DNA from: Zygnema cylindricum | Taxonomy: Eukaryota; Streptophyta; Zygnematophyceae; Zygnematales; Zygnemataceae | Direction of reading: 5' to 3' | Assembly (NCBI GenBank): GCA_037447655.1 | Contig: JBBHKE010003062.1 | Span: forward strand, 1-64,000 | Length of the DNA: 64,000 nt | Shown: one piece after another, positions 1 through 54,900 of the stretch | Numbering within the stretch: the stretch's first letter is position 1 | Layout: every line of letters begins with the position of its first letter | The notes under the pieces: generated by a model | Told to the model about the DNA's origin: nothing | Databases searched by the model: none | The model's input: the letters and a program-made list of their open reading frames with translations, nothing else | Made by a program: the position numbers and the translations under genes

Positions 1-559
1 TCTCTATAATCCACTTAAGAGGTTGGTGATCCGTGATCAGAGTGAAATGGACTCCGTATAGGTATGGTCTGAAGTGTTGGATGGCCCATACCGCCGCCAG
101 TAATTCCCCGTGATAGCTGCTGTAATTCCCCTCCGCTCGGTTATTACTCCTACTGGCGTAAGCTACCACATATTCGGCACCAGCATCATCCAGTTGGGCT
201 AAAACAGCTCCCAATCCAAACCGGCTCCAATCAGTGTAAAGGAGGAAGGGTCTTTGGTGATCAGGCATTCGGAGCACTGGGTGTTGCTTCAGGGAATCCT
301 TGAGGAACTGGAAGGCAATCTGTTGTTCCTCTGTCCATTGCCACTCCTGGTCTTTCCGCAGCAACTGGTTCAGAGGCTGAGCGTGGCTGGTAAATTCAGG
401 GATGAAACTCCGATAATAGTTAGCCAGGCCTAAAAATGTGCGGAGTGCTGAGACGTCCTGAGGAGGGGGTAGGGCATCAAGGGCTGCAACTTTGACCATA
501 TGAGGACCCACTGTCCAGGGTGTAACTTCGTGTCCCAGGTAAATAATTTTCTGGACCCC
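1..559 (-). pseudogene. Ty3/gypsy RNase H and RT thumb/connection region (partial)
   Basis: The minus-strand translation contains LLYTDWSRFGLGAVLAQ, YSSYHGELLAAVWAIQHF and LITDHQPLKWI, which are the three acidic-residue blocks (D, E, D) of gypsy RNase H; this enzyme removes the RNA strand during reverse transcription. Just upstream (to the right) the same frame reads FLGLANYYRSFIPEF, the conserved RT-RNase H connection. The frame differs by one from the RT core at 560-1467, so a frameshift lies around 560-590. The domain is cut by the window edge after the third acidic block. Confidence 0.88.
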
Positions 560-1467
560 AAAAATTCCCTTACCTGTAGACATTTCAAGCCTGTTGCTTT
601 GAGAGCTCGGAGTACAATCTGTATGTGCTCCAAGTGTTCCTCAAATGTCTTCGAGAAGATAATAACATCGTCGATATAGCACCGTGCACATTCAATCCCC
701 CGGAGTGCCTCGTCCATGGCACGTTGGAATTTGGCTGGCGCATTCTTCAGCCCGAATGGCATGTAGAGCCATTCATAAAACCTGGACCCTACCCAAAAAG
801 CTGTCCTTTCCAGGTGCTTTGGTTCCATCCCGATCTGGTGGAACCCATTTTTCATGTCTAGTGTGGAGTAGATGGTGGCCCGGGCCAGCGAGTCTAAAAT
901 CTCTTCCGGGGTAGGCATTGGGTATCGGTCAGGTACAGTTGCCGTGTTAAGCATCCGGTAATCTCTACACATCCGAAAGTCTACCGTTTTCTCAGATGAG
1001 TCCTTCTTGGGTGGGAGAACGGTTGGAGACGCAAACTCATGGAGTCCGGTACTTTCCTGCACCAATCTTGGTTCTACCTGAGTTTGTACCTTTGCCGTGA
1101 TGAACTCATTATCCTTAAAACTAAAAGGGTAATGCTTCTGCCAAACAGTAGACGTCTCGTGTATTAAATCGATTTGAAAAAGGGTTCATTTGTAGATGCC
1201 TACGTCGGTATCTGACCAGGAGAACACTTCTTTGTTCTTCTCCAACAGGTCCGAGAGCTGGGCCTTTTGCTGAGGGTCCAACTGCTCCCCTAAGGTCGAA
1301 TCCATCTTTCCGCGTTTCACCGCTGCCCAGGCCTCCGAGGGTCTACCCCAAGGGGAGATATCGAATTCCATCCCTACCTGCGTGTCTATCTCATCTCCTC
1401 CCGTTAGAATGTTACTGCTAACAACTTCCGCTAAGTTGTCCGTTTCCGAGCCTCCGCTCCCCCCCAC
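430..1467 (-). pseudogene. Ty3/gypsy reverse transcriptase
   Basis: RNA-dependent DNA polymerase of the element. Visible blocks are the template-grip segment VDFRMCRDYRMLN, STLDMKNGFHQI (first catalytic Asp), the conserved YMPFGLKNAPAKFQ and the active-site motif as YIDD (around 667-678), where YVDD is commoner. An in-frame TGA at 1186-1188 splits the reading frame just before the fingers region; the frame on both sides is the same, so it is a point nonsense mutation rather than a gene boundary. After LKATGLKC the frame shifts into that of the RNase H. The upstream segment (1186-1467) holds the variable spacer between methyltransferase and RT. Confidence 0.9.
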
Positions 1468-1619: not shown

Positions 1620-2698
1620 ACTGTAGGCTAGAGAAGGCCAGAGAATGTTTTATCACCCACGTTATTGCATTTAGATCCATGTTTTTTCCGAGTAGGCTGC
1701 ACCGCTGGAGGTCTGAAATACCTGGTGCCGCCGTGCTGGTTGGTTGGAATCCTATGGCTTGTTCTCGTTAAGTCACCGTTGGCGTTGTCCAAATTCCATT
1801 TCTGCTGTCAAATATCATTCCGTTCGCTCCTTTTCGATACGCATGGCTATAAGGGAAGGAAACCAATGTTGGCACTGCTCGCCGTGGTGCTCCTGGTTGG
1901 TTGCAGTGGAAAAACGGAGGACGATCAGCCTTAGTTACTCGAGTGGCCATTCGTCCTGGCCCTAAAATTTGATGCAGGGTAATCTGGGGATCTGTTTGGT
2001 GGTTCTCTAAGAGCTGGTTCAGGACTGACAGAGGTATCAAATTGGTCCAGTATGCCCGAACTCTGTGAGCCCTGAACTTCAGATCCCAGTTGCGCCGCAT
2101 CGAAAACAAGTGGAGCTCGTAGAATCTGCTTGACTTTATTGCAGCTATTTGCGACTTGTTTTCTCTTAACATCTCCCGGGTAGACATTCTCCAAAACGTA
2201 CCCCACTGGTTGGTCTTGGGACTGCTGCAGCCAAGAAAGTAATTTGATCATCTGGAAGAAGGTTTGACTTCTGCTGTCCTGATGTCCCTCGCCTTTCCCG
2301 GCTAGAGAGTATCCTTGACATGGCCATCCTGCTATCACCAAATCCACTCGCTCCAGAATTGCGAGATGTGGTTTCAGGATATTGTCTATATTTTGCGGAA
2401 CACTCCAGTGAGATCTGCAGATGGCGGATACCGGAAGTTGTTGGGGATACAATTGGTGGAGTTGTTGTAGTCGGTATTCAATGACGGCCCGAGCATCCGG
2501 TAAAATTTCCACGGCCACATATGACTCCACTTTATGCCCAGCTTTCAAGACAGCTTCGAGGTCCGAGCTAATTCCAGAAAATAGGGATAATATCCGGAGT
2601 CCAGAATCAGGGATAGATAATGACACCACTTGTCGATTGAATTTTTGATTTTCGGGCGGAACTTCCGAAGATTTCAACCGAGGTTCTTTTTCCTTCAC
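1620..2698 (-). pseudogene. C5-cytosine DNA methyltransferase domain inside gypsy pol
   Basis: Transfers a methyl group from S-adenosylmethionine to C5 of cytosine. Seen in order on the minus strand: motif I LSLFSGI (about 2570-2593, SAM binding), motif IV with the catalytic Cys in AGWPCQGYSLAGKG (PC at 2318-2323), motif VI as LENV (about 2183-2194), a block HRVRAYWTNL in the next frame (about 2040-2067), and a C-terminal RCSLLGKNMDLN (about 1668-1706) resembling motif X. The frame shifts by one near 2085, between AAQLG and KFRAHRVRAYW, and a TAA at 1768-1770 interrupts the last 50 residues. The linear I-IV-VI-X order argues against the permuted plant DRM enzymes and is nearer a DNMT3-like layout; target specificity cannot be read here. 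It lies between protease and RT and replaces no retroviral domain. Confidence 0.88.
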
Positions 2699-2800
2699 AA
2701 AAACAGCGGTAAAGGATTGGTCAACTTCCTGCCGAAGTTTTATTATTTGTAATAATCTGTTCTTGTATCCCTCTTCCCACCACTTAAAAATAGGGAATTG

Positions 2801-3364
2801 CTATATTATGTCTGCGATATCAATGGCGCTGGCGAGCAGTTCCGTGGGTGTGTGGGTGGCATAGACGGGATAACATCCTGCGACGGGAGCATTATCTTTC
2901 CCCCTATTCCATAGATCCACGGGAACCACCACCTTGACTCTTTTTAGATCCTCAGGATCTTGAACAGTAAACTGCTCCTTCCACACACTTAATCCCATGT
3001 TCACCCTTGTCCAGGTGGCCATTCCCAATAAAATCTCAAACTGCTTACCTTCCACCACCAGGAAGGGAAGTTCAATTCAGACCTTTTGAACTGCGTCGTC
3101 AACAAACTCTATTCACATATCTTTGATTATTCCGTGTACTGGTTGGCTCCCACTGCTAACAGTACTTAGGCAAATGTCACTAGGAAAGATTTTCGGTTGG
3201 AGTTCTTCAAGCATTTGCTGGAGAGCCGATGTGGTGATTAGATTTGGGAGTGCTCTTGTATCGACAACTGCGTCTTGATACCCGCCGTATCCGTTGAGTT
3301 TGAAATTCCCTGTCGGGTTGAGAATTAACGCAACAGATAACGTTTTGTAGTCCATATCCATCAT
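2801..3364 (-). pseudogene. Retropepsin-like aspartic protease
   Basis: Would cleave the Gag-Pol precursor. The translation has the pattern AVVDTRALPNLI, in which the catalytic D-T-G-A has become D-T-R-A; the Gly to Arg change should destroy the active site. The C-terminal flap and strand region reads ELPFLVVEGKQFEILLGMATW. Two in-frame stops lie between 3058 and 3115 and another at 2801-2803; frame is constant throughout and continues into the methyltransferase. The start shown is only the edge of the open frame, since the domain is part of a polyprotein. Confidence 0.75.
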
Positions 3365-3415
3365 AGGGGTCTTTGGGTCTGCTGACCAAAAAACAGATTT
3401 GGCGTGATCGGCTCG

Positions 3416-4246
3416 CTATTTCTCCCCTCCTGAATGGATTTCCTCTCCGAGGGCTAGGATGAGAACTTCTTCCGGCAAGTTATGAGAAGAGGCCAGTGTT
3501 TTCACGTGAGTGAGAGCGTAGGGCATTAGATGCCTTACTAACATCACTGCTGGTTTGGAGGAAGGAGGTTGATTTTTTGGCGACGAAAAGAAGGAATCTG
3601 ATGGTTCCACCTGTTGATTTTCCTTCTCCCCCTTCCCTGCTTCCTCACTTTCTTGGTTGGATTCTAGCGCTGGCGGCGTTTCTGGCGTATTATCCTCCGA
3701 GCGTTCTGCCAAATATTTTTCGAACCAGTCTTGGCTGTCACGCGTCTCTTCCTCCTTTGCTAGTTCCTCCATCTTCTTTGTTTTAGTTGTCCTGTAATTT
3801 TCGAATCCAGGAGGCAGTTTCTTTGCGGCTGGTGGAGGTGGGTTTGTAGATTTTATTCCGAGACCTATGTTGTCGTTCAGGATGACGACCCTGGGGGTGA
3901 AGAACATACGTCCAGTAGCGTTCCTGTTGTGGTCTCGTGGAGCGAGCTTTTGCCGGTCCTTTCGTTGCGCCAAGGTGGAGTTGTGGAGCTTCCTATGAGT
4001 GTCCCCGACACCGACATTCCAGGCTCCAGAAAAGAAGGTCTGTGCGTGATGGGCTTTAGGAGGTTCCATGTCCCACCCCATCACCTCGTCATCGTCTTCG
4101 CCCGCTGCGGTTTCCTGTTCAAGCTCCGCTAGCTTCTGTAGTAATTCCTGTTTTCTCCGGTGGAATTTCTGGGCGGCCGTCAGAGCGGGAGTCTTGGAGG
4201 GCGATCTTAATTGCAGCGCTGCCAATTCTGTAGCCATGGCTGCCAT
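3416..4246 (-). pseudogene. Gag-Pol linker region of the gypsy element
   Basis: A 276-codon open stretch between the zinc knuckles and the protease, in the same frame as the protease and separated from it by one stop at 3416-3418. It is rich in Lys, Glu and Pro with a likely coiled segment (QKFHRRKQELLQKLAELEQE) near its start. No recognised catalytic motif is visible. By position it is the spacer preceding the protease in long gypsy Gag-Pol proteins. Confidence 0.6.
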
Positions 4247-5016
4247 TTGTTGGCTCTGCTGTTGGATGATAATTCCGGGGTTAATCGGGCTTGACCGGTT
4301 GGCTGTTGTTTTGGGTTATCCGGGGTGCGGCGTCCCCAAGGGTAAAGAAGCTGCAACGGGAGAGGATTCACGAAAGTTTCACCTTCTCCGGTGAACAGTG
4401 CATATTGCATCATCTCTTTGGGAACTCCATTCTTTCGGAAGCACTGGCCTTCCTTGTGACCCATGAAACCTCAAGCCTCACAATTGGAGCCCTCGGTAGT
4501 ATATTTGCCCCTCAATTCATTAGAGATTTGCGCTTCATCAAATTTTGGAAGTTTTATCTGTCGCAATTGGGCTTGCGACATCTTTGCAGTGTCAGATCGT
4601 GGCGTCGGCCGGTAATTATCTTTGTTAACCAGTGTTTTATCGTCTGACCCTCCTCCTTGCTTCCTTTCTTGCTGCCTCTTTGTCCTTTCAGCTCTCTCCT
4701 TCTCCCATTCCTTCTACTTAAGAGCAAATTCCGGTTTGAGCTTCCGGGGGCATCGCTTCCATCCATGACCTGTTTGTTGATAGTTTAAACAGTTATAGAG
4801 GAAGACAAGATCATCGGCCCCCATGGCTGGTTCGGATCCGCTATCCGCCACCTGTTTCCCCTTAAACTTCCGCAAAGCTAGGAGTTCGGCCGACTCTTCA
4901 TTTTCAGAAGGCATTTCTCCGACAAATCCTGCAAAGTTACCTCGGGTTTTTCCGGTTACCGCCTTTTCCTGGGCCTCTCGGTGGACAAAGTGATCATAAA
5001 GCTTGATAGCGGACAA
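4247..5016 (-). pseudogene. Gag nucleocapsid region with two broken CCHC zinc knuckles
   Basis: Nucleocapsid zinc knuckles bind element RNA. The first (about 4750-4791) reads CLNYQQTGHGWKRC, a CX2CX4HX4C knuckle whose second Cys is Tyr. The second (about 4446-4490) reads CEA-stop-GFMGHKEGQC, where the second Cys codon has become TGA. The linker between them is Lys/Arg/Gln-rich (AERTKRQQERKQGGG). Both knuckles have lost the same position of the four metal ligands, by different mutations. Frames change between 4714 and 4464. Confidence 0.75.
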
Positions 5017-5058
5017 ATAGATTTCTTTGGCCGTTGGATTGACGTCTTGGATGGCCTG

Positions 5059-5542
5059 TCACGCAATCCACTTATCGAGGGCTGCCTGCCCCGTCGGTCC
5101 GATTGAATTTCGGACGGCGATGAAATATTTAGTTGCCATGGCCGAAAGATCTATGGTTGAGAGTTTGGTCTTTTGACAGAGACTGGACAATCTGTTAAAA
5201 AGAGTCTGGGGTGTTTCACTCTTTTGGCAACGGAATTCCGTGAATTCCTTGATAGCGGATTCATTCTTTGATAGCGGATTCATTCCTCTCGGTGTAAAGG
5301 AGTCTCAAGGCATTCAAAAGAGTGGTACAGGGGGTTGGGTCTGCAACCATCCGAGTGGCTGCCCTGGCCTCCTGGATGGCCTGAAGCTGAGCGACATAGG
5401 CTCGTCCTTGTGCCTGCAATTTCATGTCTTCTGTGAAGAGGGCGGTGACAGGAGCGGCTGCAGCGGCAGCCAAGTCTGCTTTCGCCCGCAAGACTGCCTC
5501 ATCCAGGATAGGGTCTGAAATTTTGATGTTGGGAGCCATCAA
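5059..5542 (-). pseudogene. Gag capsid-like region (frameshifted by a 19-bp duplication)
   Basis: Reads ...FTEFRCQKSETPQTLFNRLSSLCQKTKLSTIDLSAMATKYF..., an arrangement like the retrotransposon Gag capsid domain that follows the N-terminal helices at 5261-5542. A 19-bp tandem duplication (5250-5268 and 5269-5287, tgatagcggattcattct plus one base) shifts the frame by one; the residues ESAIKE appear in both frames, which shows the break directly. A single TGA at 5059-5061 separates it from the nucleocapsid region downstream. Confidence 0.7.
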
Positions 5543-5680
5543 AAGAGGTTATCGCTCCTTATAATCAGCCAGAGCGCCACCAGCAAGATAATTTACCATC
5601 ATGGGGAAAAGCGTGGTTTCGAAGTCATCCGGAATGGCTGCGCCCCTATATTTGTTGATTTCGGATTGGGTGAAAGATTT

Positions 5681-7110
5681 CTACAGCAATTCAAAATCCG
5701 AGAAAGTGGTTCCTGAACTATCTCCCAAAAAGATCCTTACGTCCCCCATTTCTTTTTCCTCCTCTGTAAGGTTGGTAAACTGAGAAGAGGATGGTCCGGT
5801 TGGGCTGACAAACTGAACCAGTGAAATTACCCTTCGATCTGCGTCGTCTGACCCGGGGCCGCCTCCTTTTTCGGTAGAAGGAGCTGCCTGACGAGAGATG
5901 GGCACCCCCCCCAATGAGGAAGTTGCAGCTACTGGTGATTTAGCGCAAAAACCTGTATTTCCCTTGGGTTTATTTCTTGGGGAAAAAGAGACTATCAGCT
6001 TGGGGAAAGAAGTCCGAAATTTTGCTCCTCTATACCCACGAGAGGCTGGTTCTTCCCGGGGTACTGTTTCCACCGAGGGGATTTGGAGAAGTTGTTTGAC
6101 CACCAGGGGTCCTTTATGGATTGGTGGAGAAGGAGATGGAGAAGACAGAGGGCTACGAGAAAAAGGAGTCTGTTTCCTTGTAAGCCTTCTAGAGGCCTCT
6201 GGCGGAGGTGTTCCTTCGCTGGAAGCAAGAGAACACCGGTGAGGAGGAGAGTAGGCAGGGACGTCGTATTTGTATGGTAAGACAGGTGGGCCCGGGGACC
6301 CCAAACTGCAGCAGCCGGAGAAACAGATGGAGAAGAATAGGATGCTTGAGGTGGTGATGGTGGAGGAGTGGAAAATCTAAGGAAAATGTGTTGTCTCCGG
6401 TCGGGTTGTAATAACACCACGACCTCCCGAGTTGAAGACCCAGCCAGTGAGACAAAAGTGGGACGCTCAGTGGTGGCGGCTGCAACGTTACCCGTTAGAT
6501 CTGCACCCATCCCCTGTTTGTTAGGTTTTGTTGTTTCCCCCCCTTCCCGTTGAAGAGGAGACTCCAGTCTAAGTTCCGAGGAATTCCCGGGAGCTTGCCT
6601 CTCCGTAGGGGTTGTCTGCACTCTAGGTTGTCTCTCAGCAGAGGGACCTGTCTCTCTAGGAGGAGCTACCTGTCCACTAAGGATCCCTCTTGATATCCGT
6701 CTAGCCTCCCTTATGAGGAGCAATTCTTGTTCGAGGGCCCTCTTCCTCTCTTCTTCAAGAGCTTCCCAATCGATGGTGACGGGTTCAGCCCCCGCCGTAG
6801 CCTGACTCTGGGATCGCAGGATATGAACCAATTTTTGTGTACCGATCACCACCCCTGAGAGATCCACAATCCCCAAACCTAGTACCTCGGGATCGGTGGG
6901 TCTAGAACGCCACAACCCCTCAGATGGTTGAACCGCCGATGTAGATGGAGACTTTGAGCTCGGAGAGGTGGAATCGGAAGGGAAGAACGACTCCGTTTTA
7001 GGTCGGGGAGCGAACCTGCCCTTGCGGTCCCGATGATCGAACCTGTACCCCTTCTTTGGCTCGGGTAACCCTCGCTTGCTGGTTCCTTCCCCGGCCCGTG
7101 TTCGAGGCAT
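5681..7110 (-). pseudogene. Proline/serine-rich Gag N-terminal region
   Basis: Two overlapping frames make one broken coding region. 7110 to about 6290 begins with an ATG (MPRTRAGEGTSKRG), has a charged helix (WEALEEERKRALEQELLLIREARR) and Pro/Ser/Thr-rich stretches; the coding sense then moves to the frame of 5681-6304, which continues Pro-rich and ends in an acidic segment (LTEEEKEMGDVRIFLGD). A one-base frameshift near 6290 explains the switch. No fold is recognised. Position upstream of capsid suggests the Gag leader, but a separate small ORF is possible. Confidence 0.5.
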
Positions 7111-7164
7111 CGCCCCGCCGTGAGCCGGCCTGCAAGTTGCGCTGTCCTGAGAGGGGGTGGGTTG

Positions 7165-7820
7165 CTAATTTGAAGTTGATGGTCCCCCTTGTTTCTCCGG
7201 TACGGAGGTTGATGAGCCGCTCTCCGACGAACTGCTAAGTATCTCCACTACACCTCCCACTGGGCGTACTACTCTAGCTCGGTCAGACCTTGCTACCCGT
7301 TGCACCAACTCCTTCTTAACCTTCAACTCATGGAGATCATGAAGGGCTAAGATTTCTTTGCGACTTGGCCGGTTACGATCGGCCAAGATCTCAAGATCTA
7401 TGTACATTTCTGCTATCGGTGCCTTAATCGGGTATAGAGACCGATCTCGGGAAGGTGACCAGGGACCGCTTCCTTGTGGGCCAACCCCTTTCTACGGCTT
7501 TTAGGGGATAAGGGCGGCCTTTCCGCCTTCTCCGAAGCCCTAGCTCTGACTGACTCGGACAACGTTGGAAATTTCTCGGGGGAAAAGACAGGTGGAGGTG
7601 GAGGAGAGGGTCGCCTTTTTGGCTTCGTTGGAGGAGTTTCGAGTGCAACCTCCGGAAGCATTTCTCCCTTAAGAAACCGCTCTATGTGTAAAGGGGAGCC
7701 AAAGGGGGGTGCTTCCTCGGGCATCTGAGACTCTTCCTCTTGGGGCACCGCTTCCTGCCTCTCTTGCTCTTCCAATCTGACACTCGGAAGATCCTTATCC
7801 TGAACTTCTCCTCCCCCCAT
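7165..7820 (-). pseudogene. First open region of the gypsy element, probable Gag start
   Basis: An ATG at 7818-7820 opens a 135-codon acidic and Pro-rich frame (MGGGEVQDKDLPSVRLEEQE) that passes, after a one-base shift near 7410, into KKELVQRVARSDRARVVRPVGGVVE and a Ser-rich tail ending at 7165. Nothing upstream on the minus strand continues the frame, so this is the most 5' coding segment found. Function unknown; it may be a short upstream ORF or the Gag N-terminus. Confidence 0.4.
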
Positions 7821-9155
7821 AGTTGACTGGAGAGGAAGATCAAAATCCCCTTATAAAGTACTCCGCCTTGAGCACCTATCCTCTTTAACCTAAAGAGACA
7901 GGTTGCTGTTTCAGTACTGTGATGGTCTGTCGAAAGTCTAACAAAAGTCCTCTCAGAATCCACTATCCTGGTACAAAAGATTCTTGTAATCACCCTCGGA
8001 GGAAACCAAACCGAAGCCACAAAAAGAACTACCAAAGAGAGAACAAAGATACTTCCACTCAGAAAAATGAAAGGATAGAAATATAAATAATGCTGTCTCA
8101 TAATTAACAATATCACCTTGCCCTTAGAAAAATTGAGAATTAAGATAGAATATGAAAAATAGCAAGCGAACTCAACCTACCCTCAAAACGTAACAAAGAC
8201 AACAAAAGGAGACGAAATCTCCCTCCGAAAACCCCGGAACAGGTAAGGCCTCCTTAACTCCTTGGTTTCCGCGACCCGAAATTGGCAAGACCCTTCTTGA
8301 TTTCCAACAAACACCAGTCCACAAGTCGCCCAAACAGGAAAAGACAGTGCCAACCACCAAACCGGACTACGATTTCCACAAAGGACGGATGAAAATCAAG
8401 ATGGCAATAGGGTCACAATCACACACAAAACAAAAGTTCTCCACAAGAAAATTTGCTGGAATTTCTAGGGTTTTTCTCAGGAGACAGTACTAAAACAGCA
8501 ACCTGTCTCCCCCGGCCCTAAGTGCCTTATACAAGCAAAGTTTGTCCTACCGATAGTACCAAAGTCAAAGCAATACCAGGATCCAATCACTGGCCAGAAA
8601 TTGTTATTGTACGGACAGAAGACAAAACAGGTTGTACTACACTCAGGGCAAAAAGTTAGGCGACTATCTCCGGCTAGATTAGAAGCCACGTGTTTTTCTA
8701 TGGTACAATCCTGAGCAACAAAGTTCTAAATTGACGTGAAACGCCTAACTTTGACTCTCATTAATAAATGCTCTACCCGGCTGGCAGACCTGAACTAACG
8801 TCATACTGACAGCCAACATCAAAACCTACAAGACTATCCCAAAAGTTACGTGGCGTTCCACAATGTAGCCCCCAATGAGACATTTGGCAACTGGTCACAT
8901 GTAACAGGATGGTAATCTTTCGAACAGAGTAACTCCGTCGTCCGGCCTCCGTTAGGTGCGAAATAAAGTGCGTTTTGTTTTGTTAAGAAAATAGAAGAAT
9001 CTGGTCCAGCTGAGTGCGCTCTTTTCCCCGTACTTTAATGACCGTACAGAGGTAAAAGGCCCGTGAATCCTTGGTAAGATAAAAGGGGTGCCTCTGAAGC
9101 ACACGAGCTTGACAGCTGTCGAGCATGCCGGCAAACATCAGAGGAGGGCCCACTA
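7821..9155. other. Non-coding DNA upstream of the gypsy Gag, probable 5' LTR/leader, borders unresolved
   Basis: No convincing gene. By position this should contain the 5' leader and LTR of the minus-strand gypsy element. A TG-starting candidate edge (tgtagcccccaatgag near 8863) was seen, but no confident primer-binding site or matching 3' LTR is available because the other end lies outside the window. Confidence 0.4.
7895..8509. repeat. 26-bp inverted repeat 560 bp apart
   Basis: gagacaggttgctgtttcag... at 7895-7920 is matched on the opposite strand at 8484-8509, 25 of 26 positions. It lies in the presumed leader/LTR zone of the gypsy element. Its role is unknown; it could be the termini of a small inserted element or part of the retroelement leader. 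Confidence 0.7.
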
Positions 9156-9384
9156 TGTTGGATTGGCACGTGAAGCCGGTCCAATACGGGGTAGAATATG
9201 GAAATATCCATACTCGAGCTGCCCGTAATAAATGGGTACGGACCTGCCAGTCTCAACATCGAGCTGGTGGCACAGTGGTAGTGCGTTTGCAGCTGAAGTG
9301 AAAGGTCCCAGGTTCGAACCCTGGCCGGCTCAATTTTCCCAAGTGTGGGACATGTCGAATCCCGGATTTCTAGGAAATCTAACA
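9156..9384 (+). mobile_element. Solo LTR of a TRIM-like element with internal tRNA-like sequence
   Basis: Starts TGTTGGATT and ends AAATCTAACA, so it has TG...CA ends with a short inverted terminus. It is clearly homologous over its length to the LTR at 28336-28567 (shared blocks include the tRNA-like core, the tttccc..g.gggaca block and the ggattt-c-ggaaatc end). No primer site or polypurine tract adjoins it here, so it is a solo LTR or remnant. A clear target-site duplication was not found. Confidence 0.7.
9261..9332 (+). other. tRNA-like sequence in TRIM LTR (Pol III A and B boxes)
   Basis: 72 nt that fold as a tRNA: acceptor GAGCTGG pairs with CCGGCTC (one G-U), D arm GCAC/GTGC around AGTGGTA, and a perfect T arm CCAGG-TTCGAAC-CCTGG, followed by A73. 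The A box (TGGCACAGTGG) and B box (GGTTCGAACCC) fit the Pol III consensus. The anticodon arm is weak and lacks U33, so a working tRNA is unlikely. It is called tRNA-derived because it lies inside the LTR and recurs in the second copy at 28442-28514. Confidence 0.7.
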
Positions 9385-9520: not shown

Positions 9521-10442
9521 AGGATACATGTACTACTGTGGACATCGAAACGGCGGGTATTTATTACTCGGGACAACCCAAATTACAATTATGGATTAAT
9601 TAGTATGTATGTTTTTTTTCAAAAAAAATAAACTCCCAATTAGCATTAATAACACTAATTTTTTTTTTTACGCTATTTATTCCTTTACTCTAATAGCGAT
9701 TGACGGTCTACTGTACCGTAACATTTTCATTTCGTCATCTATTCTGTACGCGGCAATGTGAACCACGGAAGGCGTCAGAAAAATCAGATCGGATAGTCAG
9801 GAACTCACGATCGCGTCAGCAGCCCCAGAAGGATTTTGATGACTGGATCGGTAAATGGCTTATCCGCACGAAAAAAATTAGATCGGACGATCTAGATCGC
9901 CTCCGAAAAAATAAAAGTTTCACGGAATTGAATAACGTACGGCGTAAAAATACAACCCGCGAAATGCAAGGCGCCGACTTCGGTAGTCCGTACAGAATCG
10001 GGCACCGGAACAGGTTAATGCTCCCAGGAAAGTGTGAAACAGCTATTCTCAGCACGGAACGGCGCTGGACAATTAGTCAATTACCAAAGGGACGTTCGGT
10101 CAAATCCAATAACGACACGCTCCGTTTGGCCATTGGACCGCTCCGCGCCCCGAACCGCAGTCAGGAAATAATACTTAGCTTGGGTCCCCCCACCCTTAAA
10201 TAGTTCTGGGCTCAAGATCCTCACTATCCTGAGGCTCTTGCAGGAGGAGGAATAAAGTTTGGAAGTCACTCGTGTCACGTACCTAATGCTAGACGCAACC
10301 CTGAAAAAAATTCAATTCTGAAATATCATCAAATTAAACAGTTATACTGTACATACTATTTGCATAGAAACGAGCGGCCGAGGGGCGTCCACGTAGGTGA
10401 CTTTTACTCTAAAATTTTAAAACAATAAAATTCAGAACCGAT
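9521..10442. other. Intergenic sequence upstream of the hydrolase
   Basis: No gene supported. A 167-codon open frame exists at 9700-10203 but has no ATG near its start and no recognisable domain. The final 70 bp before the hydrolase ATG are AT-rich (aattttaaaacaataaaattc) and may be the core promoter or 5' UTR; no clear TATA box could be assigned. Confidence 0.5.
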
Positions 10443-11369
10443 ATGGAAGGTCCCGGCGTCAACAACTTAAATGTAGGTGCCACGTGGCAACACCGAGCGC
10501 TAATGGCCAACGGTATCAACATCACTTTCTACCAAAGCGCTTCACCTGCCAGCTCTAACGCTTCCGGCGCTATCCTTCCTATTCTTGTCTTTTTGCACGC
10601 CATGTGGCTCAACGGCGCCACTCTAATTGTCGACACGCAATCTCTCACTGAATCCTTCACTCTCGTCCTTCCCGACGCACGCGGTCACGGCTATTCTTCT
10701 CCAGTGCCAGCTGGCAGCTTCAGGATGAACCACCTGGTAGAGGACGCCGTGGCGGTCATCGAACACGTGTCACCGGACGAGCCCGTTTTTCTCATGGGCA
10801 CATCCATGGGTGCCGCAACGGCCGCACGTGTGGCGAGACGTTATCCTTCCCTTGTACGAGCGCTGGTATTGGAGGAACCGCCGTGGATTCGATTCCCGGG
10901 CGAGCCCGTCCATTGGTCCACCATTGATCCCGCTACTCACACGGAAATGCCGATATTTGTCCGTCAGTTAAAAAATATGACGGACGAGGAATTCGAGATC
11001 ATGGATATCGGCGGCGCCGCACTTCCGTCGCTGGCGATGTCAAATCTTGCCGCGTGGCGGATGTTCGATATCGATAATTGCGAGGGAACCCTAGGATCGG
11101 TGGATAGCGCGAACAATGAAGCGGTCCCGAGTATCGCCATGATGACGCTTCTGCAAATTGGCGATATCGAAGCGACGGGAAGTCAAATCAACGGTTCGAA
11201 GATTCAGCCGGAGGTGGCGAAGTACATCGTGAAGACGTACAAGGACGGTACTTTGTCGTTTTATGAGGGTGGAAACCACGTGTTGCATGAAGCGCCAACT
11301 GCGGAAAAGTGGTTGGATGAGGTGCAACACTTTTTCAGCAGTCAATCTGGTAAGACAGAGGAGTTGTGA
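10443..11369 (+). CDS. Alpha/beta hydrolase, intronless
   Basis: 308-residue serine hydrolase of the alpha/beta fold. The nucleophile elbow is GTSMG (residues 119-123, Ser121); probable acid Asp241 in LQIGDIEA and His279 in GGNHVLHEAP complete the triad. The oxyanion region reads FLHAMWLNGAT at 50-60 and PDARGHG at 78-84 is the usual strand-loop after it. Length fits single-domain esterase/epoxide-hydrolase-like members; substrate cannot be told, since lid residues are not diagnostic. The ATG is the first in frame and follows an AT-rich leader. There is no signal peptide or membrane segment, so the product is likely soluble. The ORF is complete, without introns, and appears richer in GC than the flanks, possible signs of transfer or retroposition. 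No operon-like neighbours. Confidence 0.85.
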   Translation: MEGPGVNNLNVGATWQHRALMANGINITFYQSASPASSNASGAILPILVFLHAMWLNGATLIVDTQSLTESFTLVLPDARGHGYSSPVPAGSFRMNHLVEDAVAVIEHVSPDEPVFLMGTSMGAATAARVARRYPSLVRALVLEEPPWIRFPGEPVHWSTIDPATHTEMPIFVRQLKNMTDEEFEIMDIGGAALPSLAMSNLAAWRMFDIDNCEGTLGSVDSANNEAVPSIAMMTLLQIGDIEATGSQINGSKIQPEVAKYIVKTYKDGTLSFYEGGNHVLHEAPTAEKWLDEVQHFFSSQSGKTEEL

Positions 11370-51981: not shown

Positions 51982-54900
51982 GTAACACAAAGTCTCTTTA
52001 AAGGGAATTTTAGATGTTGTTAATTCACTTAAGATTTCAACAGGGTCTGTTATGAGTGTTAACACTCTCAAGGATTGATGTGGATAAAGGTTGTTGTCTT
52101 TCAGAATGGTAGCAATGGCAGGTTAATGTCTTACAGTGTGTTGACCTCCTTTATATAATTTCTTTTATTTTTATTTTTTGCAGGAAGTATATTCAGATGG
52201 TGGTCACGAAAGACAGGAGGAACATGTGGACCTTGAGCTTCAAGTAAGTCAGGATGATGTCTCTGCTCAAGATGTTAAAGTGAGACCGAAATTCGAGCCT
52301 ACTGTTAAGGTAACTGAACCGCCAAGGAGAGAGGGTTTAAGACCTAGAAGGGGAGGTACAGCAGTAGTACAGGAAAGCAGGTCAGAGGAAGAGGACGAGG
52401 AGGAACAGGACGAAGAGGACGACGGAAATGGGGATGGAGATCAGCTTTCTCACGAAGAGGACGAGGATCTGGAGAGGGAAGAGGATGGAGAAGGAGACGA
52501 GGAGGAGGATGAAGGAGAAGGTGAGGAAGGAGAGGAAGGGGAGGAGGAGGAGGAGGACGAAGAAGGAGATCAAGGGCGACGGGAAAGAAGATATGCTCTC
52601 CGGAATAGAACAGAAGTTCAACGGTTTTCTCCAAGGAGGGAGGAACGCCCAGCTCGGGCAAGATCCCCTAGGAGGATGTATCCCCAGGGCGGGAACGGAG
52701 GAGGAGGAGGAGGAGCTGGAGGAGGAGCCGGAGGAGGAGGAGGAGGAGGAGGAGGTAAAAGGGGAAGAGAAGGTAGGAGACTAACGTCAAAAGGCCACAA
52801 AAGACACCACTCTTTACGGGCCGAAGATTCGGATGATTCCTTACTTGTTGATGAGATGGACCAAGGTCCGGCCGGTTATTGGGGGAGAGTTAGTAGACCT
52901 TCTGAACCTCCATGGATGCCTCCTGGTATTGAGATCCTTGGACCCTCAGCTTGGGGTTTAGGAGCTTCTGCAAATGGATGGGGGAGCCATGGGGATTGGC
53001 TTGCTGGGGGAGTAAACCAAGGAGGAGGAGGAGGAGGAGAGGGAGTTTCTGGAGGGGTTGGGGGACAGGGAGGAGGAAAATTTGCGGCGAAAGTTGGGGC
53101 TGATGTTCAGCCTATTCTGGTGGATACATCCGTCACATTTGATCAAATTGGTGGTCTTTCTCAATATATAAATTCTCTGAAAGAGATGGTTTTTTTTCCT
53201 TTGTTGTATCCTCAGTTTTTTGCTAAATATCATATTGCTCCCCCGCGAGGTGTTCTCCTTTGCGGCCCTCCGGGCACGGGAAAAACTTTAGTAGCTAGGG
53301 CCTTAGCAAGCACGGCAGCTCGGGCAGGTCAAAAAATAACTTTCTTTATGCGAAAAGGTGCCGATGTACTCAGTAAGTGGGTGGGAGAAGCCGAGAGACA
53401 GTTGAGAATGCTTTTTCAAGAAGCTCAACGATGTCAACCTTCAATCATTTTTTTCGATGAAATCGACGGTTTAGCTCCTGTTCGTTCCGGAAAACAAGAA
53501 CAGATTCATAACTCAATTGTTTCGACTCTTCTTGCTTTAATGGACGGTTTAGATTCGAGAGGACAAGTTGTGGTTATTGGAGCCACAAATAGAATCGATG
53601 CGATTGATGGAGCTCTACGAAGACCGGGAAGATTCGACAGAGAGTTTTTCTTTTCGCTGCCCGATGTCAAGGCAAGAACAGAAATTTTAGGAATTCATAC
53701 ACGGAATTGGAAAGATCCTCCCTCAGAAAGCTTAAGGAAGGAACTTGCCCAGTCATCTGTTGGATACTGTGGAGCCGATATGAAGGCTCTTTGTACTGAG
53801 GCAGCTATACGAGCTTTCCGAATGAAATATCCTCAAGTTTATGAAAGTGACGAACAGTTTGTAATAGATGTGGATTCAATTAGAGTGGAAAGAAGGCATT
53901 TTCTCGATGCCATGAAAGCCATTACCCCTGCGGCTCATAGATCAGCTGTAGTTCATGCTCGTCCTTTACCTCCATGGATTTCCCCTTGTCTTGAAAGTCG
54001 ACTGGGAACTATTATGGAAAAGCTTAAGGAGGTTTTCCCACCATTGGCAGCACAAGAATCGGAGGAGGAAGAGGAGGAAGAGGAGGACGAGAGAGAGGGT
54101 GACGGTATGCGACAGTTGACACGTTTCCTTGGAGCTCGATTTGGGACCGCCATTCCCTTCTTACAAAGGCCTAGGCTTTTGCTTTGTGGAAAGGCTGGGG
54201 CAGGACAGGTGAGAAGGAAGAGAGTTTTTGAGACGGAAGGGGAGAAGGATTTTGTTTCCTTGGGAATTTCTTTTTCAGCTTTCTGTGGGCTTGTTTAATG
54301 TGGCCTCACCTTTTTTTTTTTGTTCTCTCTGATTTTTTGTACACTCGTCAGTTTTATTTACTTGACTTTTTGTTACCGATTTTTTTAAAGGTTGTAATGC
54401 CAGTCCACAATGTGATTTATAAGTGAATCAGTTTGTGACACATAGTGACTCAGAGTTACTCAATAGTTTGTACCATTTTTTATCTTTTATTCTCTTCATT
54501 TTTCCTAGAAATCCAATGAATAGATTATGTTCTGACTTGTAGACTTATAGTGTGGATGGAGAAATTGGTGTGGTTTACAAATTTTTTGTATGTAAAAAGA
54601 AAGGGGCATGTATATATGCTTAAAGTCCTCAGTTTGACTTTCTTTGGAAGTTACTGTGGTCATACTAATTTATGTTTTGAAAAAGGGGTTCCCGGATTTA
54701 GTATGGGCCAGATGAATTAGATTGAGGGCTGTACAGAGTGTATAAATCTGAAAACACTGGACTTTCTTCCTTTTTTTATTTTTTTTATTGCATCGTTTTT
54801 TTTTGTTTGTGTCTACACGTCTGCTAATTGTTTTTGAAGTAATGGCCTTATTCTTAGACATTGCCTATAATCGCCTATCACCTAAATTTACTTAGATTCT

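Follow-up and report, generated by a model that had tools for sequence, protein, structure and literature searches.

The stretch analyzed here, referred to as the window, comprises 64,000 nucleotides of Zygnema cylindricum contig JBBHKE010003062.1 (positions 1 to 64,000; C2298:1-64000 in our numbering). Its minus strand carries a Ty3/Gypsy retrotransposon that runs from about position 9114 to the contig start, the remainder being absent from the assembly. Between the aspartic protease (PR) and the reverse transcriptase (RT) of this element lies a cytosine DNA methyltransferase (DNMT). The parts of the element, with percentages for alignment to copy L010 from the same genome, are as follows.

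8075..9114, minus strand: aligning part of the 5′ long terminal repeat (LTR); 70.6% identity to the C1374 copy's 5′ LTR across 1068 columns
3638..8074, minus strand: leader and gag region whose CCHC-like knuckles have decayed, in open reading frames (ORFs) bearing CLNYQQTGHGWKRC and GHKEGQCF; resembles the L010 gag frame, by eye
2804..3637, minus strand: PR, with catalytic DTG changed to DTR and with internal stops; 72% against L010 PR residues 1-279
2801..2803, minus strand: TAG at the PR/DNMT junction, family-wide (a stop in 28/28 loci compared)
2777..2800, minus strand: post-stop stretch CAATTCCCTATTTTTAAGTGGTGG (family form CAATTCCCNATTTCNAAGCGGTGG), from the alignment of copies and exact-match counts
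2074..2800, minus strand: N-terminal part of DNMT with motifs I, IV (PCQG) and VI (LENV); PF00145, 1.1e-10; 68% against L010
1528..2073, minus strand: C-terminal part of DNMT in another frame, with motif VIII and a IX-X stretch; 71% against L010 residues 242-423; read by three-frame translation
2..1191, minus strand: RT and RNase H, cut by the contig start; RVT_1 2.5e-26, RT_RNaseH_2 4e-35; 80% and 93% against L010

A sequence-only reading of this DNA had placed DNMT motifs between PR and RT of one Ty3/Gypsy element, and the profile searches confirm it. The window ORF at 1931-2800 (minus strand) matched PF00145 (1.1e-10) and holds motifs I (FSGISS), IV (PCQG) and VI (LENV) in frame, while motif VIII (AHRVRAYW) and the IX-X stretch lie in a second frame at 2073-1528, with matches to RVT_1 and RT_RNaseH_2 downstream of the DNMT. 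Among known proteins, the N-terminal part matched DNMT3C (8e-8) and DNMT3A (5e-6). L010, whose Pol frame is open, aligned to the window DNMT in two blocks (L010 residues 1-244 and 242-423). That reading had allowed for a single frameshift; one is indeed present near 2074, but the DNMT also has an in-frame stop at 1768-1770, and beyond it are stops at 1525-1527 and 1186-1188 as well as another frameshift, between 601 and 514. The protease motif reads VVDTRALPNL, compared with VVDTGALPNL in 15 of 27 copies, and the integrase (INT) of this copy would fall beyond the contig start. We consider it likely that the window holds a dead, contig-truncated Ty3/Gypsy copy in which a DNMT3-like C5 methyltransferase (C5-MTase) is a core Pol domain, with the mechanism and history proposed below.

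The element family and its methyltransferase

The window DNMT frame had at least 136 matches in the same genome, the weakest at E = 1.5e-45, which excludes chance and agrees with the earlier claim that it is no chance neighbor of the element. This count takes in the window itself (100% identity; the others 55-89%) and two pieces of one copy, and it is a lower bound, 135 of 1615 first-look candidates having been scored. Intact copies, which the sequence-only reading had proposed to collect, were found as open Pol frames: L010 and L011 are single open frames of 1520 and 1525 aa that contain DNMT, RT, RNaseH, H2C2 and rve integrase domains and a C-terminal PHD-like finger. Relatives with open frames show the order PR, stop, DNMT, RT, RNaseH, integrase, PHD, and the PR-RT-RNaseH-INT order of Pol was present in L010, L011, L024 and others, and in L035, described below. 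No in-frame DNMT stop was present in 12 of the 26 copies covered over at least 70% of the DNMT. The L010 RT matched Ty3 RT best in the PDB (3.5e-80; next non-Ty3 structure 8r0s, 7.3e-56), and its PR matched Asp_protease_2 at 2.1e-4 and 22.3 bits, below the curated cut-off of 24.3. The C1374 copy, 16,255 bp overall, has an LTR pair of 1,186 bp that is 97.8% identical.

Searching the genome with DNMT3A led to a second element lineage, represented by copy L035, which runs for 2,395 codons without a stop as gag-PR-DNMT-RT-RNaseH-INT-PHD (gag and PR read by eye). The L035 DNMT had at least 125 matches in the genome (66-100%). The L010-type and L035 lineages are 42% identical in DNMT and 47% from RT to PHD. 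A host DNMT3 gene was not recognized among the 150 matches to the DNMT3A query, of which L035 was opened and some others were known by position.

We mapped codons across 27 distinct copies (the window and L004-L029, L016 also representing L003), giving 351 pairs, of which those with a synonymous rate (dS) between 0.05 and 1.5 were usable. The ratio of nonsynonymous to synonymous rates (dN/dS) in DNMT, suggested earlier as a check, was below 1 in all 113 usable pairs (median 0.32, maximum 0.80), even though dead copies among the 27 push the ratio upward. Values for the other domains were 0.25 in RT (110 pairs), 0.26 in integrase (54), 0.19 in PHD (46) and 0.41 in PR (95). Between subfamilies, in hand-picked pairs, the proportion of synonymous differences (pS) was 0.62-0.80, near saturation in every domain, and that of nonsynonymous differences (pN) was 0.17-0.22 in DNMT and 0.03-0.08 in RT. 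An unconstrained domain would not be expected to stay about 70% identical at such saturation, as DNMT does; the DNMT is held by long-term selection. We do not attribute the contrast between high RT identity and low DNMT identity to recombination: with pS near saturation in each domain of these between-subfamily pairs, constraint explains it.

Alignments placed the C5-MTase motifs of the element DNMTs in canonical order, not rearranged. The catalytic Cys, Glu and Arg were each kept in 63 of 64 element DNMTs. Motif IV has CQ in 63/64 versus CN in DNMT3A, and because the Cys-Asn that marks animal DNMT3A is thus replaced, we call the enzyme DNMT3-like; CQ is a common motif IV form in other C5-MTases too. 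Modeling predicts a fold closest to the DNMT3 catalytic domain. A bacterial or phage methyltransferase was considered and rejected, the sole viral-contig match of one scan being a phage enzyme on a phage-like contig.

Once freed by PR, the DNMT would act in or near the particle, methylating new complementary DNA (cDNA) or the landing site, where the PHD finger beside the integrase would read histone tails and so steer the integrase. Of the competing accounts, the one we take most seriously, though we think it less probable, is that the DNMT is real but its retained role is not cDNA self-methylation: it would instead methylate the host's chromatin or the RNA of the element, or adjust copy number to the benefit of the host. 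Its catalytic residues would be kept whatever the substrate, and RNA-methylation and host-benefit readings have been proposed for retrotransposon DNMTs (PMC5890265). CpG loss in the element is weak: CpG observed/expected was 0.69 in the window element, and the range was 0.64-0.69 once ten-kilobase stretches from its lineage were included, with 0.90 in L035 and 0.74-0.93 in the rest of the window. Transitions occurred at 0.077-0.095 per CpG site versus 0.026-0.044 elsewhere, a contrast inflated by counting a site if either copy has CpG, and the rise does not separate self-methylation from host methylation. The Pol position beside RT nevertheless favors action in the particle, and the predicted fold is nearest to a DNA enzyme class.

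A stop codon between PR and DNMT

A stop codon lies exactly between PR and DNMT in 28/28 loci, which represent 27 distinct copies (26 TAG and 1 TAA). The sequence-only reading had treated the DNMT as part of one polyprotein with its neighbors. The DNMT does sit in open Pol frames, but the PR frame is split from it by the TAG at 2801-2803, throughout the family. The 24-base family form that follows the stop had 191 exact matches in the genome, against 1 when reversed as a control, with TAG preceding 170 of the 191; the window copy of this stretch differs from the family form at 2 bases. Relatives lacking the DNMT, or a DNMT found once only, had been named as outcomes damaging to the idea of capture; what we found is a DNMT after PR at every one of the 28 loci and a junction repeated across the genome, so that capture into a Ty3/Gypsy polyprotein is supported.

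Several features around the stop bear on translational readthrough. Degenerate codons without synonymous variation make up 5/8 of those after the stop, versus 104/782 in PR, DNMT, RT and INT (p = 0.0015), which is suggestive only as a sign of a signal just after the stop. A UUCCC/GGGAA hairpin is predicted in the same place, with four of its five pairs invariant and one changing from U-A to U-G. The bases after UAG, CAATTC (UAG CAA UUC), fit 5 of the 6 positions of CARYYA, short of the full context. CARYYA is the tobamovirus-type readthrough context, although one review that we searched did not give it. The stop is also in frame, and the frames on its two sides form a single one in L035 and in protein P0002. 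Ribosomes would mostly end at the UAG after PR, and low-rate readthrough would yield DNMT-Pol at the dose of Pol, from which PR would release the DNMT.

It is somewhat unlikely, in our judgment, that the TAG is instead a plain end, with Gag-PR and DNMT-Pol made from different mRNAs, by re-initiation or by splicing. The case for readthrough is one of sequence only, L035 of the second lineage has no stop at this junction, and the AG of the TAG could serve as a splice acceptor; such an arrangement accounts less readily for a conserved stop context and for a stop placed in frame between parts that are fused elsewhere. An alternative code with UAG as sense was judged unlikely, there being zero stops in the 2,395 codons of L035 and the 1,520 of L010. 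Separately, L010 DNMT codons 55-69 form a second cluster of codons that are synonymously invariant across subfamilies, possibly another RNA or DNA signal.

Relatives across green algae

Searching with the DNMT region of the Pol frame returned 26 proteins, including ones from Klebsormidium nitens, Closterium sp. NIES-54, Chromochloris zofingiensis and Haematococcus lacustris. A profile search aimed at cellular DNMT3s returned 63 further proteins, among them another Chromochloris protein and one from Dunaliella salina, and none of the 63 was named as a DNMT3. The window ORF alone retrieved no relatives, probably because candidates were limited to proteins of similar length. Klebsormidium belongs to the Streptophyta, and Chromochloris, Haematococcus and Dunaliella to the Chlorophyta. 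The DNMT lies ahead of RT in 7 of the 26 proteins and after RT/RNaseH or adjoining the integrase in 17, the placement being undecided in 2 (P0003 and P0024, Haematococcus). Members of both sets end in a PHD finger, and the relatives' DNMTs are 32-52% identical to that of L010. The Closterium protein, P0025, had no near counterpart in the genome studied here, the best match longer than 200 residues reaching 49%. In the Chromochloris protein P0019, a G-patch domain (residues 737-780; 5.1e-5) lies between DNMT and integrase.

In the IQ-TREE trees, proteins with the RNaseH-DNMT-integrase order formed a clade for DNMT (support 97), RT (92) and INT (84). The window lineage grouped with metagenome protein P0001 (98 in DNMT, 100 in both RT and INT). 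P0004 paired with P0020 of K. nitens (100 in both DNMT and RT), and L035 was weakly placed in the three trees (42, 67 and 74). FastTree gave the same split in DNMT (0.997) and RT (0.999). Because the DNMT and RT trees share this split, the two domains appear to have traveled together after it. The DNMT would be an ancient acquisition that changed place in Pol a single time and has since been inherited with its RT.

Two placements would also result if related Gypsy elements had captured a DNMT3 independently, twice or more, once next to PR and once in the gap from RNaseH to integrase; recurrent DNMT capture is known in dinoflagellates (PMC5890265). We regard this as unlikely: the same split appears in the trees of DNMT, RT and INT, members of both sets carry the terminal PHD finger, the DNMTs are related, and CQ in motif IV is common to both, a weak point given how widespread CQ is. 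That the DNMT is a chance neighbor, or a host pseudogene into which a retrotransposon inserted, could have been entertained from the broken window copy alone but is refuted by a junction found 191 times in the genome and by open frames that cross it.

Interpretation and known systems

The boldest reading, which we hold tentatively and at close to even confidence, is of a clade spanning Chlorophyta and Streptophyta in which a DNMT3-like writer and a PHD reader are permanent parts of Pol, derived from one ancient capture, with a single move from the PR-RT to the RNaseH-integrase position and with UAG readthrough setting the dose in the window lineage. Cytosine methylation is ordinarily directed at transposons, so the usual arms race is turned around when elements retain, under selection, a methyltransferase of their own. 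The arrangement looks like an old, widespread design rather than the reported oddity. If a writer and a reader are indeed fixed in a green-algal clade that has two lineages and over 250 matches in a single genome, the role of self-encoded methylation would become testable by comparing relatives that differ in which of the two sites holds the DNMT and in whether a recoding stop is present.

Several observations weigh against the main interpretation, that of a DNMT3-like core Pol domain with the mechanism and history given above. Invariance as high as that after the stop occurred in 6/754 windows, the other five within DNMT codons 27-69, and since the hairpin pairs are nearly invariant they provide no covariation evidence. 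Selection on DNMT is weaker than on RT (RT pN 0.03-0.08). L017 and L028 look mosaic in PR, counter to a simple tree-like history: pS between L016 and L017 is 0.77 in PR and 0.32 in DNMT and RT, and between L025 and L028 it is 0.63 in PR, 0.39 in DNMT and 0.31 in RT. The mildly low CpG observed/expected of the element is weak evidence at best for a mutational scar of self-methylation. The supports of 92 and 84 lie below the usual 95 for this bootstrap. Human DNMT3A, the only cellular DNMT3 in the trees, falls inside the PR-DNMT-RT set (branch 2.26, support 67), as a second capture might produce; this attachment fits an ancestral PR-DNMT-RT order but may reflect long-branch attraction. Finally, no target-site duplication was seen at the C1374 copy, the sole copy inspected.

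Elsewhere in the window, a tRNA-Gln(CTG) match at 9261-9332 (plus strand) lies at a distance of 147 bases from the edge of the LTR (9114), and the 219-base block around it (9156-9374) recurs at L034:6360-6576 (91.8%); the repeated block is perhaps a short interspersed element, or marks a landing preference. Positions 16000-46000 hold several Copia copies (Pol_BBD, rve and RVT_2 in two ORFs scanned). An alpha/beta hydrolase occupies one open frame at 10413-11369 (plus strand; Abhydrolase_1, 6.6e-17), and an AAA ATPase ORF with an acidic leader lies at 52145-54298 (plus strand; PF00004, 3.3e-40; similar by eye to proteins of the ATAD2/Yta7 type). In the wider genome, an RT match at G000:C961:71428-72081 (minus strand) falls within an open frame listed at 5,743 aa, a length well above that of the Pol frames we read.

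Within the literature searched, what goes beyond the record is the chlorophyte reach, the other placement of the DNMT, the PHD finger and the stop at the junction. Among the papers listed, none concerned a chlorophyte DNMT-Gypsy, RNaseH-DNMT-integrase placement, a PHD finger or a junction stop; subscription papers and preprints lay mostly outside the search, and Fig. 4c of PMC5890265 may show some of these. The available portions of PMC6453930, PMC11540031, PMC9289625 and PMC12477816 yielded no DNMT-Gypsy case, and that of PMC12344493 refers to earlier reports of DNMT3 in LTR and DIRS elements.

The in-frame UAG ahead of Pol domains resembles gammaretrovirus gag/pol readthrough (PMC4178896 and PMC8310308, available portions); here, in contrast, the stop follows PR, the next domain is DNMT, and the readthrough is a proposed one. 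SymbioDIRS-Dnmt3 and SymbioLINE-Dnmt of dinoflagellates are likewise retrotransposon-borne cytosine DNMTs, but they belong to other classes, with tyrosine recombinase or long interspersed element machinery; SymbioDIRS-Dnmt3 shows de novo CG methylation in yeast, and the DIRS type has two domain orders in Pol (PMC5890265). Closer are Chromochloris P0019 and metagenome proteins P0005, P0011 and P0016, which share a homologous DNMT, Gypsy RT or RNaseH, H2C2, rve and PHD and differ in carrying the DNMT between RNaseH and integrase and in motif IV, for which ECQ was counted in 36 of 64 rows.

The nearest known system is KnitGypsy-Dnmt3 of K. nitens, described in 2018 as a DNMT3 in Gypsy Pol with Ka/Ks <0.2 and treated as an independent acquisition in that lineage; its enzyme gave no activity in yeast, a result its authors call inconclusive (PMC5890265). 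Its repeats are DIRS-like according to the legend in that paper, whereas the C1374 copy has a direct LTR pair, and the available text does not name a PHD finger for it. The sequence-only reading had suggested that placement between PR and RT might extend the charophyte case, but K. nitens P0020 (KFL_009030040), by inference a KnitGypsy-Dnmt3 copy, already has DNMT-RT-RNaseH-INT behind a protease-like stretch (by eye), the same order as in the window. P0020, which is partial, differs in having no junction stop and a DNMT 42% identical to that of L010. Like the family described here, KnitGypsy-Dnmt3 is an LTR Gypsy element whose Pol frame holds a DNMT3-class enzyme, intronless and under purifying selection (PMC5890265), and the position of that enzyme ahead of RT is found in P0020, L010, L011 and L035 alike.
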